Shown here in pieces: positions 6,464-64,000 of a stretch of 64,000 bases of DNA (the stretch's first letter is position 1; every line of letters begins with the position of its first letter). The stretch comes from Roseobacter fucihabitans (GTDB lineage Bacteria; Pseudomonadota; Alphaproteobacteria; Rhodobacterales; Rhodobacteraceae): the NCBI RefSeq assembly GCF_014337925.2, contig NZ_CP143423.1, positions 1,580,501 to 1,644,500 of the forward strand, given 5' to 3'. The notes under the pieces were generated by a model. It saw only the letters and a list, made by a program, of their open reading frames with translations, was not told the origin of the DNA and searched no databases. The position numbers and the translations under genes were made by a program.

Positions 6464-7633
6464 ATGAGGACACAAGTGGCGATCATCGGGGGCGGCCCGT
6501 CAGGGTTATTGCTCAGTCAACTGCTGCATCGCCGCGGGATTGATACGGTCGTGATCGAGCGCAAATCCAAGGATTATGTGCTGGGCAGAATACGCGCTGG
6601 CGTTCTGGAAACCGGGCTGGTGGATCAAATGCAACGTGCGGGTGCTGGTGCCCGCATGCTGCAAGAGGGGCTTGTGCATAAGGGGACGGTGATTTCCTAT
6701 GGCGAGCGGCAGATCAACATCGACTTTGAAGCGCACACAGGCAAGCATGTGCTCGTTTACGGGCAAACCGAGGTCACGCGCGATCTATATGCTGCGCGCG
6801 AGGTCGTGAATGGGAAATTGATTTTCAACGCCGACCATGTGCAGATCTGTGACGTCGACACCGAGACCCCCTTTGTGAGCTATGTCAGTAAGGGCACAAC
6901 GCATCGGCTGGAGTGTGATTTCGTGGCCGGATGCGATGGTTTTCACGGGGTCAGTAGGCAGACCATTCCCAGATCTGCGCGACGTGAATACGAGAAGGTT
7001 TACCCCTTTGGCTGGCTGGGCATTCTGGCAGAAACCCCGCCGGTCCATGATGAGATTATCTACGCCAGTTCGGAGCGTGGCTTTGCGCTCTGCTCGATGC
7101 GCAACAGACACCTCAGCCGCTATTACATCCAGTGCGATCTGTCTGACAGCGTGCAGGACTGGAGTGATGACGCCTTTTGGGAGGCTCTTAAGCGGCGTAT
7201 CCCTGAGCAACATGCAGAGCGTTTGATCACGGGGCCGTCGGTGGAGAAATCCATCGCGCGGCTGCGCTCCTTCGTGAGCGAACCGATGCGTTGGGGGCGG
7301 CTTTTTCTGTGCGGCGATGCGGCTCATATCGTGCCGCCCACAGGTGCCAAAGGGTTGAACACGGCGGCCAGCGACGTGCATTACCTGTCTGAGGGTTTGA
7401 TCAGATATTATGCCGACAAGGATACAAGCGGTATTGATGGCTACTCGGCACGCGCATTGGCCAGGGTGTGGAAAGCGGAACGGTTCAGTTGGTGGATGAC
7501 GAGCCTGCTGCACCGCTTTCCGGATCAATCGGCGTTCGACCTGCGTATGCAGCGCGCGGAAATCGACTACCTGTCCGAGGATAAGAATGCGCAGGCAATT
7601 TTGGCCAGCAATTACGTCGGATTGCCCTACTAA
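6464..7633 (+). CDS. pobA: 4-hydroxybenzoate 3-monooxygenase
   Basis: FAD-dependent, NADPH-using hydroxylase of 389 residues that converts 4-hydroxybenzoate to protocatechuate. The FAD-binding GGGPSG is at residues 9-14, the PobA block RIRAGVLE near 43-50, the second FAD motif LFLCGDAAHIVPPTGAKG near 282-299, and the family segment SDVHYLSEGLI follows. Length equals that of characterised PobA. GGGAGAG lies 4-10 bases before the ATG at 6464. It diverges from the PcaQ-type regulator and is followed directly by a dead transposase. Downstream protocatechuate 3,4-dioxygenase genes must lie elsewhere. Confidence 0.93.
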   Translation: MRTQVAIIGGGPSGLLLSQLLHRRGIDTVVIERKSKDYVLGRIRAGVLETGLVDQMQRAGAGARMLQEGLVHKGTVISYGERQINIDFEAHTGKHVLVYGQTEVTRDLYAAREVVNGKLIFNADHVQICDVDTETPFVSYVSKGTTHRLECDFVAGCDGFHGVSRQTIPRSARREYEKVYPFGWLGILAETPPVHDEIIYASSERGFALCSMRNRHLSRYYIQCDLSDSVQDWSDDAFWEALKRRIPEQHAERLITGPSVEKSIARLRSFVSEPMRWGRLFLCGDAAHIVPPTGAKGLNTAASDVHYLSEGLIRYYADKDTSGIDGYSARALARVWKAERFSWWMTSLLHRFPDQSAFDLRMQRAEIDYLSEDKNAQAILASNYVGLPY

Positions 7634-7794
7634 AACATTTTGCATTTAATCTGCGGCATATCCGGCAGCTTTGAGGAGGTTCCGGCATTCGCTTGGATCA
7701 AACAGATCACAAATGTCGCCGAGGGCCTGGAAGAGTGCATCGAACGTTTTTAGCCCGATCGGTCTCAGATGGGCTTTGAGAAAGCCATCTCGAT

Positions 7795-7835
7795 CATTGG
7801 CCGTCAGGGTATTGTGCAGCAATGTCCCGAGAGGT
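7795..7835 (+). repeat. 41-bp palindromic repeat, copy A
   Basis: Outer arms CATTGGCC-GTCAGGG and CCCGAGAGGT surround the hairpin ATTGT-GCA-GCAAT. Removing these 41 bases rejoins the transposase codons for DLNP and IEMAF on the minus strand, i.e. next to the catalytic glutamate. No target-site duplication is visible. Confidence 0.8.
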
Positions 7836-7935
7836 GGGGTTGAGGTCGCGGGAGTAGGGCGGCAAGAACAGGAACCAGCACGCGCTTTCTTAACGCCTGC
7901 GCTGCGCGGGGGCTTTTGTGGGTGGAAAGATTGCC

Positions 7936-7975
7936 CCTTGCCCGGCAGTTGATTGCAAAGCAATTAAGGAGAGGA
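7936..7975 (+). repeat. 41-bp palindromic repeat, copy C (diverged, 40 bp)
   Basis: Arms CCTTGCCCGGCAG and GGAGAGGA surround the hairpin TTGATTGC-AAA-GCAATTAA. It lies inside the dead IS630 transposase between the codons expected to read VIL and DNLSTHKS. It is more diverged than copies A and B, and its borders are uncertain by one or two bases. Confidence 0.65.
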
Positions 7976-8182
7976 GAGAATGGCTACCGTTCCGGGTTCC
8001 AACGCAGGTGTCGAAGGCGCGCCCGTCCAGTGCACCCGTGATCACCCACGGCGCGATCAGCGCAGCCCGGCGATGAAAGTCTGCGTACCCCGTTTTCCAA
8101 AGGGCGCGGTGCCAAGGAGGCGCTCGCCTATAGGTGCCCGTCCGCACAGCCGCGTGACATTGGTTTTTACGGCTGTCTCATC

Positions 8183-8223
8183 CACTGGCCGTCAGGGTAT
8201 TGCGCAGCAATGTCCCCAGAAGC
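8183..8223 (+). repeat. 41-bp palindromic repeat, copy B
   Basis: Arms CACTGGCC-GTCAGGG and CCCCAGAAGC surround the hairpin ATTGC-GCA-GCAAT. Removing 41 bases rejoins the minus-strand codons for LVFI and DETA, so this copy sits immediately before the first catalytic aspartate of the IS630 transposase. It is very similar to copy A. Confidence 0.8.
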
Positions 8224-8885
8224 AATAAAGACCAGTCTGTGTGGCTCCTGGCGCATGCGCGGCTGGCGGTGGTTGATCCACCCCCGCCTTGCCCTGCGCA
8301 GGGCAGGCCGATTACGTTCCCGTGCGATAAGTCCTTTTTTCATATAAGAACCCGGCGCGTACCAAGGCGCGGTGAATTGATGAGAGGTGAACAGATACGC
8401 CAGACGTGTCTTCCAGCGCGCCGGATAGTTCATGCAATGTTATGTCTGGTTCGGCACGGATAACCCCGATTAAGAAATCCTTATACGGTGCCAGCTGGCC
8501 AAATCGGCCCACCGGCCTGCCCTGTGGTCTGGGCGTGACGTCGCGCCGCTCTCGTTTGTCCGCAGCATAACGCACCCCCGTTGCCGCACTGACACCAAAA
8601 ATACGCCCTGCTGCACGACAAAAGATCCCAGCAGCAACATACCCGCAAATCCGGTGCCGAAGATCTAAAGAAAGAGGTTTGCCCATCATCCACCTCCACA
8701 CTGAAAATGAAGCAGACAAAGACTCCTTTGGGAAACACAAATCAATTCAGATTAAACGCAAACCGCTTTAAGGCTGAGGTGGTCTGACCACCGCCAGGTC
8801 GGACATGCTATTGTAGCACAGCAGCAAATTTATATCCCGGCTTACTAAGGCGGATTATGAATTCTGCGGGTCGCGCCGTGTTATA

Positions 8886-62722: not shown

Positions 62723-63040
62723 CTAGGCCAAATATGGATTTATTTGGACGGAGGTGGTAAAAACCTTTATACAACTACCGGTCGAATTTGTTTCAAAGAC
62801 GACACAGGTAAGATCGTGAACTCTGAAAAATTCTTGAATTTTGAATAGCTTGGGATGCTCAGGTTCGATCCGTACAGCTGAAATTGTTTCAAACGCTATT
62901 ACACCGAAGTTCATTGTTATATCAAGCGCGTAGACCATCGCCAGCAGCGTCCCGTAGCCCATGTTAGAGCGGTCGCGGTATTCGCGGAAAATGAAGCTGG
63001 TGACGCTATCCGTGGCACTACATCGCGCCCATACAGAGGT
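62723..63040 (-). pseudogene. 3' remnant of an unidentified gene cut by the IS3 element
   Basis: The minus-strand frame is open from the presumed IS3 end at about 63040 down to a stop at 62723. It reads ATDSVTSFIFREYRDRSNMG and continues YGTLLAMVYALDITMNFG. An internal ATG at 62962 exists, but codons upstream of it look equally protein-like, so the real start was probably lost to the insertion. I do not recognise the family. Confidence 0.4.
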
Positions 63041-63341
63041 TGTCGCAAGATTTCGGACCAGTCGTTAAGGTGGATTAATTTGTGAAAGAAGTGATCCCAA
63101 ATGACGAAACGAAAGAATTATTCGCCCGATTTCAAAGCTAAGGTTGCGCTTGAAGCAATTCGCGAGGAGATGACGTTGGCGGAGCTGTCCAAGAAATATG
63201 GCATTCACCCGACGCAGATTGGGACATGGAAATGCGCGGCGATAGAGAACCTGGCGACGGCCTTTACGCGCCGAGGGTCCGTCGCTGAGCAGGTGCAGCC
63301 CCAGAACAGGTGAGCATTGCGGACGTCGACAAGTTGCATTC

Positions 63342-63380
63342 TGTCAACCGGCAGGTGATTGCCTGCAATCACTGAGAGGG
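63342..63380 (+). repeat. 41-bp palindromic repeat, copy D (39 bp)
   Basis: Arms TGTCAACCGGCAGG and CTGAGAGGG surround the hairpin GTGATTGCCTGCAATCAC, a perfect seven-base stem. It interrupts IS3 OrfA between DKLHS and KIGQL. Two bases shorter than the other copies, so either it has a deletion or its left border is misplaced. Confidence 0.7.
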
Positions 63381-63420
63381 GAAGATCGGCCAGCTGGTGG
63401 TGGAGCGGGATTTTTTGGCC

Positions 63421-63461
63421 CCCTCCCGGCAGCATGCTGCGCATGCGCCTGTCGGGCAGTG
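63421..63461 (-). repeat. 41-bp palindromic repeat, copy E
   Basis: Reverse orientation relative to D and F. Read on the minus strand: arms CACTGCCCGACAGG and CCGGGAGGG around the hairpin GCATGC-GCA-GCATGC. It interrupts IS3 OrfA just after VERDFLA. The arms match copy F closely while the stem sequence differs. Confidence 0.8.
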
Positions 63462-63498
63462 GATGCCTCGCATCAGTTGCTCGGGACGCGAGGCAAAA

Positions 63499-64000
63499 AT
63501 GGTGAGTAAGGAGCACAAGCTGAGTGTACGCCGTCAATGCAAGCTGCTGACGCTGACCCGATCCCACTTGTACTATGAACCGAAGGGGGAGAGCGCTGAG
63601 AACCTACGGTTCATGGAAATCATTCACTGCCCGGCAGGGTTATGCGAAGCATGATCCCGAGAGGGGATAAGCAATTCCTCGAAACGCCATGGTAGGGGTC
63701 ACGTCAAATGGCGCGGTGCATGCAACGCAACAACCACAAATGCGGTCGCCATTGCGTGCGCCCTCTCATGCGGCTCATGCGTTTGGTCCCGATCTATCAG
63801 GAACCCAACACGAGCAAGAAACATCCCCAGCATAAGATCTGGCCGTATTTGCTTAGGAAAGCCGTGATCGACCGCCCGAACCAGGTATGGTGTGCTGACA
63901 TTACCTACATCCCGATGCGGCGTGGCTTTCTGTATCTGGTGGCAATCATGGATTGGTACAGTCGCAAAGCCCTTGCTTGGCGGTTGTCCAACAGCATGGA
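63499..64000 (+). pseudogene. IS3-family OrfB (DDE integrase), broken and truncated by the window end
   Basis: Starts MVSKEHKLSVRRQCKLLTLT; RSHLYYEPKGESAENLRFMEI follows and is cut by a palindromic repeat at 63625. KQFLETPW then meets an in-frame TAG at 63693 where TAC (Tyr) is expected, and the frame resumes GSRQMARCMQRNNHKCGRH. The first catalytic Asp is in NQVWCADITYIPMRRG, and VAIMDWYSRKALAW follows to the window end. Typical IS3 order and spacing. Confidence 0.85.
63625..63665 (+). repeat. 41-bp palindromic repeat, copy F
   Basis: Arms CACTGCCCGGCAGGG and CCCGAGAGGG surround the hairpin ATGC-GAA-GCAT. Removing exactly 41 bases rejoins ATCATT and GATAAG, restoring the OrfB reading FMEIIDKQFLE. 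The cleanest example of precise insertion in the window. Confidence 0.85.

Follow-up and report, generated by a model that had tools for sequence, protein, structure and literature searches.

The window analysed here, 64,000 nucleotides of the Roseobacter fucihabitans genome (NZ_CP143423.1, positions 1,580,501 to 1,644,500, forward strand), contains a transposase gene of the IS630 family that is broken at three places by short, similar palindromes. The locus raises the question of whether these palindromes are a mobile element, how such an element would insert, and why it lies in a transposase. The original prediction had placed copies at 7795-7835, 7936-7975 and 8183-8223 and six copies in the window altogether. 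A covariance model, BLAST, and comparison with relatives confirmed the three places, and the six copies are divided equally between the IS630 copy and an IS3-type copy:

7630..8775, minus strand: dead IS630-family copy that carries copies 1-3 (limits converted from locus L047)
7795..7835, plus strand: copy 1 of the element (41 nt), interrupting the IS630 transposase at DLNP/IEMAF (covariance model, frame repair, read-through relatives)
7936..7975, plus strand: copy 2 of the element (40 nt), interrupting the IS630 transposase behind ...TVAIL (model, relatives; length by frame reading)
8183..8223, plus strand: copy 3 of the element (41 nt), interrupting the IS630 transposase at LVFI/DETA (model, frame repair, relatives)
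63028..64000, plus strand: IS3-type copy that carries copies 4-6 and extends past the window end
63342..63380, plus strand: element copy 4, 39 nt, in the IS3-type copy (model, empty relative)
63421..63461, minus strand: element copy 5, 41 nt, in the same IS3-type copy as copies 4 and 6 and in the opposite orientation (model, empty relative; gap split 34 + 7)
63625..63665, plus strand: element copy 6, 41 nt, in the IS3-type copy (exact 41-nt gap versus the empty relative)

The covariance model, R1, was built from the six window copies. Their E-values, 3e-12 to 3e-7, are therefore obtained by construction. With filters off, the next match in the window had an E-value of 0.34. Plain BLAST linked copies 1 and 3 at an E-value of 1.6e-9 and the other copies only weakly. 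Across the window, nothing in Rfam reached the gathering score, and the 101 bases around copy 6 (63600-63700) yielded no Rfam match up to an E-value of 5. The first and third inserts are exactly 41 bases long, as had been predicted: cutting 41 bases gave ...DLNP/IEMAF... and ...LVFI/DETA.... At the middle site, a 41-base cut left the frame broken; by reading of the sequence, a 40-base cut, which corresponds to the original limits 7936-7975, restored VAIL-GNLSTHKSP. The length of 41 bases thus holds for copies 1 and 3, not for copy 2, and the family ranges from 36 to 45 bases, as found using a search pattern that admitted about 34 to 46.

Two checks had been proposed for these inserts: alignment of the IS630 remnant with intact relatives, and a search of this and related genomes with a model of the six copies. 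IS630 transposases on Hoeflea and Azospirillum plasmids lack the inserts and are uninterrupted through LVFI/DET, VVIL/DN, and DLNP/IEM. Because these relatives read through all three places, the 41 bases are not normal transposase sequence. Alignment to both relatives also revealed two gaps in the window copy, of 8 and 3 residues, with stops. These lesions are additional to the inserts and support the description of the copy as dead. The first apparent frameshift is natural, as both relatives change frame at that place too. A search of 58 other genomes yielded no IS630 copy near enough to be compared at the DNA level. For the IS3-type copy, the draft genome of a relative (G001) contains a region that is 81% identical over the aligned bases and that lacks all three elements. 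The gaps were 39 bases at 63342, 41 at 63625, and 34 plus 7 for copy 5, equal to its 41 bases; a 15-base gap at 63280 is unrelated to the elements. The element itself had no model match in G001. In the R. fucihabitans genome, 148 of the 150 scored candidates reached E ≤ 1.4e-4, so the element is not limited to the two remnants. As 150 of 2571 candidates were scored, at least 148 is a floor. The 59 stretches around matches in this genome contained 220 model matches at E ≤ 0.5, and further genomes of the family were also positive (see below).

We evaluated the insertion junctions by comparing filled sites with empty relatives. An empty relative at least 70% identical in both flanks was available for 100 distinct filled sites. 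The net insert ran exactly from CAYTG to GAGAGGG at 71 of these, was off by one base at 26, and by two bases at 3. The left flank carried the motif Y-C-R-T-C, and the right side had no motif except G at +1 (211 sites). Of 205 sites queried, 47 could be paired with an empty relative that aligned without gaps at 75% or more. The motif was already present in these empty sites: 98% had A or G at -3, 66% had T at -2, 62% had C at -1, and 60% had C at -4. The absence of a visible target duplication, noted originally for the IS630 inserts, was general: none of the 47 exact filled and empty pairs shared three or more bases across the insert, and two pairs shared two bases. The G at +1 occurred in 87% of filled sites and in 51% of empty sites. 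This discrepancy is not explained by plain insertion, and one base may be exchanged.

A junction-spanning protein match was found at 72 of 216 sites, for which the exact cut was best at 46 and a cut longer or shorter by one base was best at 26; some of these matches are to spurious frames. The matched transposase stretch was free of stops in 36 of the 46 exact junctions. Insertion mostly shifts the frame, as had been expected from the window copies: the length was divisible by three at only 19 of 235 distinct sites and frame-shifting at the other 216. A test based on the length of the joined frames was not decisive due to the long chance frames in these GC-rich genomes, and the junction matches and empty sites were used instead. 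All of this evidence is sequence comparison: no insertion was observed, and we had no pair of strains with and without a given copy. The clean inserts, the empty sites, and the many copies at unrelated sites in many genera bear out the original interpretation of a small mobile palindromic element.

The outer arms and a central ATTGC/GCAAT hairpin had been proposed as the shared features of the copies. The arms were retained and could be resolved into a 5' tag, a covarying 3-bp outer stem, and an internal loop that hardly varies. In the central hairpin, the structure is conserved and the sequence is variable. Based on 211 distinct insertions recovered with a two-arm pattern, the unit consists of the tag CAYTG, then CCC GGCA GG, the inner stem, and CC GAGA GGG. 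The tag is followed by the outer stem and a nearly fixed 4x4 internal loop (GGCA/GAGA). Next comes the covarying inner stem, which usually measures 7-9 bp and often contains an extrahelical T; it is closed by a short loop that in most cases is GNA. The pattern demanded several arm letters (e.g., left CAG, right GA) and an inner inverted repeat, which in part imposes the constancy of these letters. The same arm letters are seen in the window copies, all six of which were aligned without this pattern.

Pairing was assessed in several sets of distinct elements. In 96 distinct 41-mers, 96.5% of cells over 12 pairs were Watson-Crick, versus 77.8% (maximum 79.6%) after column shuffles and 18-37% with slid partners. 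This set and a set of 171 elements of all lengths had been pre-selected for a five-base inverted repeat. Without this filter, which had excluded 21 of 130 distinct 41-mers, pairing was lower and still high: 92.9% Watson-Crick in the six inner pairs versus 66.9% (maximum 69.7%) in shuffles. Similarly, 70 elements recovered with the strict arm pattern used for named genomes (see below) had 94.5% Watson-Crick cells in the inner pairs versus 67.5% shuffled. The extrahelical T at position 31 was present in 90 of the 96 41-mers. The GNA loop occurred in 83 of the 130 filter-free 41-mers, for a composition expectation of 7.5%. C-GNA-G loops form unusually stable hairpins in single-stranded DNA. Among the 171 elements, there were 27 G.T mispairs versus 5 A.C mispairs. 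However, 11 of the 19 G.T cells in the 96 41-mers were in a single column, so common descent may account for part of the excess.

Analysis of mutual information revealed that positions 7 and 8 are coupled with their outer-stem partners and that position 1 is coupled both to position 5 and to target +1, the base that directly follows the insert. The latter three are mostly C, G, and G, with a minority having T, A, and another +1 base; perhaps they form a base triple. By the same measure, the CAYTG tag and the YCRTC target did not covary strongly.

The element is widespread in one bacterial family. Among 59 genomes, including that of R. fucihabitans, 25 carried it: 25 of the 35 in the family and none of the 24 in other families. 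Larger samples, each including R. fucihabitans, gave at least 68 carriers among 149 genomes of the family, at least 105 among 195 genomes of the order, and at least 13 among 289 genomes of the class, of which 4 belonged to the family and 9 to 8 other families. These counts are floors as scoring was limited and filters were strict. A strict pattern found at least 120 stretches in named genomes, of which 90 loci were scored. Among 80 stretches listed, nearly all were from Rhodobacteraceae or Roseobacteraceae; the exceptions were two unplaced alphaproteobacterial assemblies, one Labrenzia, and one Kitasatospora with a weak score. Two variants of the element matched 79 and 133 plasmid records, respectively, and we take the genus names among the matches listed to be all Rhodobacterales except Shinella (2 records). 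Five viral contigs also carry the element (L231-L235).

In the DNA examined, the element is sited almost exclusively in insertion sequences of many families. On the named contigs, 100 of 109 elements were within 150 nt of a recurrent gene cluster versus 8 of 190 control points chosen more than 2 kb from elements. At 300 nt, these numbers were 104 of 109 and 13 of 190. The recurrent clusters were defined from the neighbourhoods of elements, so this comparison favours enrichment. With only 12 Pfam-labelled proteins, and with their own loci excluded, 55 of 103 elements versus 3 of 267 controls were within 150 nt, and 72 of 103 versus 5 of 267 were within 300 nt. The clusters group protein frames found close to elements; of 20 cluster frames submitted, Pfam matches were obtained for 12 and not for the other 8. 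The labelled clusters were IS3, IS5 (two), IS21, IS66 (two), IS110, IS91, IS1595, IS240, a tyrosine recombinase, and a helix-turn-helix protein that we took to be IS630-like. In R. fucihabitans, the DNA on both sides of the element recurred in other fetched loci, own or foreign, at 49 of 55 distinct sites, to which overlap between some of the own stretches may have added a few.

Within the insertion sequences, orientation relative to the transposase was random, 71 elements lying along it and 80 against. Single elements accounted for 22 of 39 groups in R. fucihabitans and 57 of 92 groups in the named genomes, and neighbouring elements occurred in all orientations (68 and 150 distinct elements, respectively). 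The likeness of neighbours in the same copy was 0.744 versus 0.751 for random pairs (sd 0.012) in R. fucihabitans and 0.750 versus 0.775 (sd 0.010) in the named contigs. As neighbours were not more alike than random pairs, elements in one insertion sequence arrived independently, and local hopping inside an insertion sequence was rejected. In the named contigs (L111-L200), neighbours were slightly less alike than random pairs, as if similar ones had been lost by recombination.

After their interruption, insertion sequences were multiplied as entire units, elements included. Three more copies of the interrupted IS630 in the genome (L045, L056, L072) were 99.4-100% identical over 1031-1147 bases and had different flanks. 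The dead IS630, with its three inserts and other lesions, is present in four near-identical copies in different surroundings, moved by another transposase. The IS3-type copy occurred, whole or in part, at four other places in the genome (610-1441 bases at 99.9-100%). Other interrupted units had up to seven aligned copies, all 98.97-100% identical and with different flanks, and one element together with its flanks was seen eight times. At L037 (3006-3046), the left flank of copy 1 is fused to the right flank of copy 3. Such deletion forms of the IS630 were made by recombination between the first and third elements. Two more sites share the same 25-base flanks as the L037 form.

To identify a mobiliser, we compared the presence of transposase genes in carriers and in the matchless genomes of the family. 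Y1 genes occurred in 6 of 25 carriers versus 0 of 10 matchless genomes. There was no Y1 match at E ≤ 1e-5 in the other 19 carriers, including a one-contig genome with 27 matches to the element, and a Y1 or RAYT mobiliser was rejected on co-occurrence alone, which speaks against it. Y2 genes occurred in 10 of 25 carriers versus 0 of 10 matchless genomes. An IS91-type Y2 mobiliser was also rejected: Y2 genes were absent from genomes with 23 and 31 matches and are also among the victims. Neither type was found in 13 of the 25 carriers, including one with 31 matches. All ten family genomes sampled that have Y2 also carry elements. IS91-type Y2 transposase and tyrosine recombinase genes lie near elements, in part interrupted by them (L054, L201, L207, L210, L223).

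Of ten Y1 loci tested in the R. fucihabitans genome, six have no element and four have one inside the gene: three identical interrupted genes and an older copy with a decayed element. The three are IS200-type TnpA genes broken by the same element (L104, L105, L106), and L101 is an uninterrupted relative. By reading, the Y1 proteins of this genome resemble IS200 TnpA and not RAYT. In one relative, an element is located 155 nt from a Y1 frame (L267). Finally, the orphan arms in all fetched DNA (19 of 429 left arms and 9 of 310 right arms) included no longer, gene-bearing version of the element; they look like truncated or mutated copies or chance matches.

We consider it probable that the copies are non-autonomous, REP-like mobile palindromes of approximately 36-45 bases that hitch-hike in insertion sequences and whose mobiliser is unknown. 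The unit would move as a folded single strand, namely the CAYTG strand, an inference that rests on the loop type and the excess of G.T mispairs. A nuclease or transposase that recognizes the hairpin would cut it at both ends and join it behind YCRTC in a single-stranded target, in the manner of IS200/IS605 and REP elements. We infer that this unidentified enzyme is supplied in trans; it need not be a Y1 protein. A second mode of spread would follow when a broken insertion sequence, still moved by intact relatives, carries its element to new places and genomes.

The REP-like layout, with a 5' tag followed by an imperfect hairpin, together with the left-sided target motif and the lack of duplication, would also be expected of a conventional REP family whose mobiliser is a RAYT or some other Y1 (IS200/IS605-type) transposase. 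The restriction of Y1 genes to carriers and the element near a Y1 frame in one relative fit as well. We nonetheless regard this as improbable given the 19 carriers without Y1, the tested Y1 loci of R. fucihabitans, which either lack the element or have it inside the gene, the TnpA-like character of their proteins, and the absence of a GTAG/GTGG tag. It is even harder to credit that the element is a MITE belonging to a DDE insertion sequence, or that it arose by duplication of part of the transposases. It is palindromic and lies inside insertion sequences, but there is no target duplication, the families hit are many and unrelated, and the element is absent from the uninterrupted relatives looked at. 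Equally remote is the proposal that the elements are intron-like or translationally bypassed and the interrupted transposases still work. The multiplication of multi-element insertion sequences at 99-100% identity might suggest as much, but the window IS630 has four copies despite lesions unrelated to its elements. Transposition by intact relatives suffices, so a working interrupted transposase is not needed. Moreover, the elements occur in both orientations relative to the gene.

The siting itself permits another reading: the elements may target insertion sequences specifically, or selection may retain them there because they silence these sequences, which would make them a specialised parasite of, or brake on, mobile DNA and not random inserters. 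The enrichment over control points, also with Pfam-labelled proteins only, the recurring DNA on both sides of most R. fucihabitans sites, the number of unrelated families hit, the frameshifts, and the stop-free transposase stretches at exact junctions all speak for it. Yet hitch-hiking alone enriches insertions in mobile DNA, several insertions per copy are pointless for silencing, and orientation relative to the transposase is random; in addition, the clusters were defined near elements, and only 12 of the 20 cluster frames have a Pfam match. We judge aim or selection unlikely, without dismissing it. The broader proposal, that a hairpin element with an unknown single-strand mechanism is directed at or kept in insertion sequences as a hyperparasite or brake across a bacterial family, is similarly doubtful. 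Aim at insertion sequences versus hitch-hiking remains undecided; siting due to aim or selection would add a layer of parasitism or control on mobile DNA.

The probable hitch-hiking palindrome resembles several known systems in part, and reads as a REP-like kind that constitutes a new family. Rickettsia palindromic elements are also palindromes inside genes. However, those elements tend to keep the reading frame and lie in expressed genes, whereas the present element shifts the frame at most sites and its hosts are mostly transposase copies. The SDR of cyanobacteria, reportedly described by Elhai and co-workers in 2008, are very small mobile repeats with an unknown mobiliser; they belong to a different phylum and differ in sequence and structure. 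No description of the present element was found in the open-licence literature searched, figures not being covered.

As described in two sources (PMC3116915, PMC6006769), GTAG REPs are imperfect hairpins that carry a 5' tag at their foot, and REPINs are inverted doublets of them. The element shares with these the tag at the hairpin foot, an imperfect hairpin within the expected range of about 20-60 nt, the many copies, and a probable single-strand transposition. It differs in its tag, CAYTG, having no GTAG or GTGG, and in inserting as single units inside genes. Membership in the GTAG-RAYT system fails on tag and transposase: most of the carriers have no Y1 gene (PF01797), and at the four of ten tested R. 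fucihabitans Y1 loci that hold an element, it lies inside the gene, although one relative has an element 155 nt away. In IS200/IS605, according to PMC6006769, the hairpin has a guide 5' of its foot. This arrangement, the left-only target motif, and the lack of duplication are common to these insertion sequences, their derivatives, and the present element, which in contrast is a single geneless hairpin of approximately 36-45 bases found mostly, among the carriers tested, without Y1.

The nearest kind is the CGTC-REPs (Di Nocera et al. 2013, PMC3733652). These are short palindromes found mainly in Alphaproteobacteria with no dedicated transposase known, a dedicated mobiliser having been proposed there only for GTAG-type REPs. 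A CGTC/TGTC-like motif lies beside one end in both cases, but the CRTC of the present element is part of the target. CGTC-REPs have a stem of 8-9 bp that starts with paired A and T, a loop of 4-5 bases, and a CCA tail, and they are mostly intergenic, head-to-head dimers predominating. In contrast, the present element has neither the AT stem start nor the CCA tail: its outer stem starts with CCC, its inner stem mostly with GG or T, and its end is GAGAGGG. Its loop is mostly 3 bases, it has an additional outer stem and internal loop, and it occurs mostly as single units that lie within transposase genes or next to them. The main text of PMC3733652, figures not being covered, nowhere mentions Rhodobacter, Roseobacter, Ruegeria, Dinoroseobacter, Paracoccus, or Rhodobacterales.

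REP-like palindromes are very common small repeats in bacteria, yet to our knowledge there is little direct evidence that a single palindrome inserts cleanly. The dozens of empty sites described above reveal both the target rule and the moving unit. CRTC, next to the 5' end of the element, lies outside the insert and is already present in the empty sites, a further difference from the CGTC-REPs. This presence ahead of insertion suggests that what is taken for the 'tag' of the orphan CGTC-REPs may likewise belong to the target.
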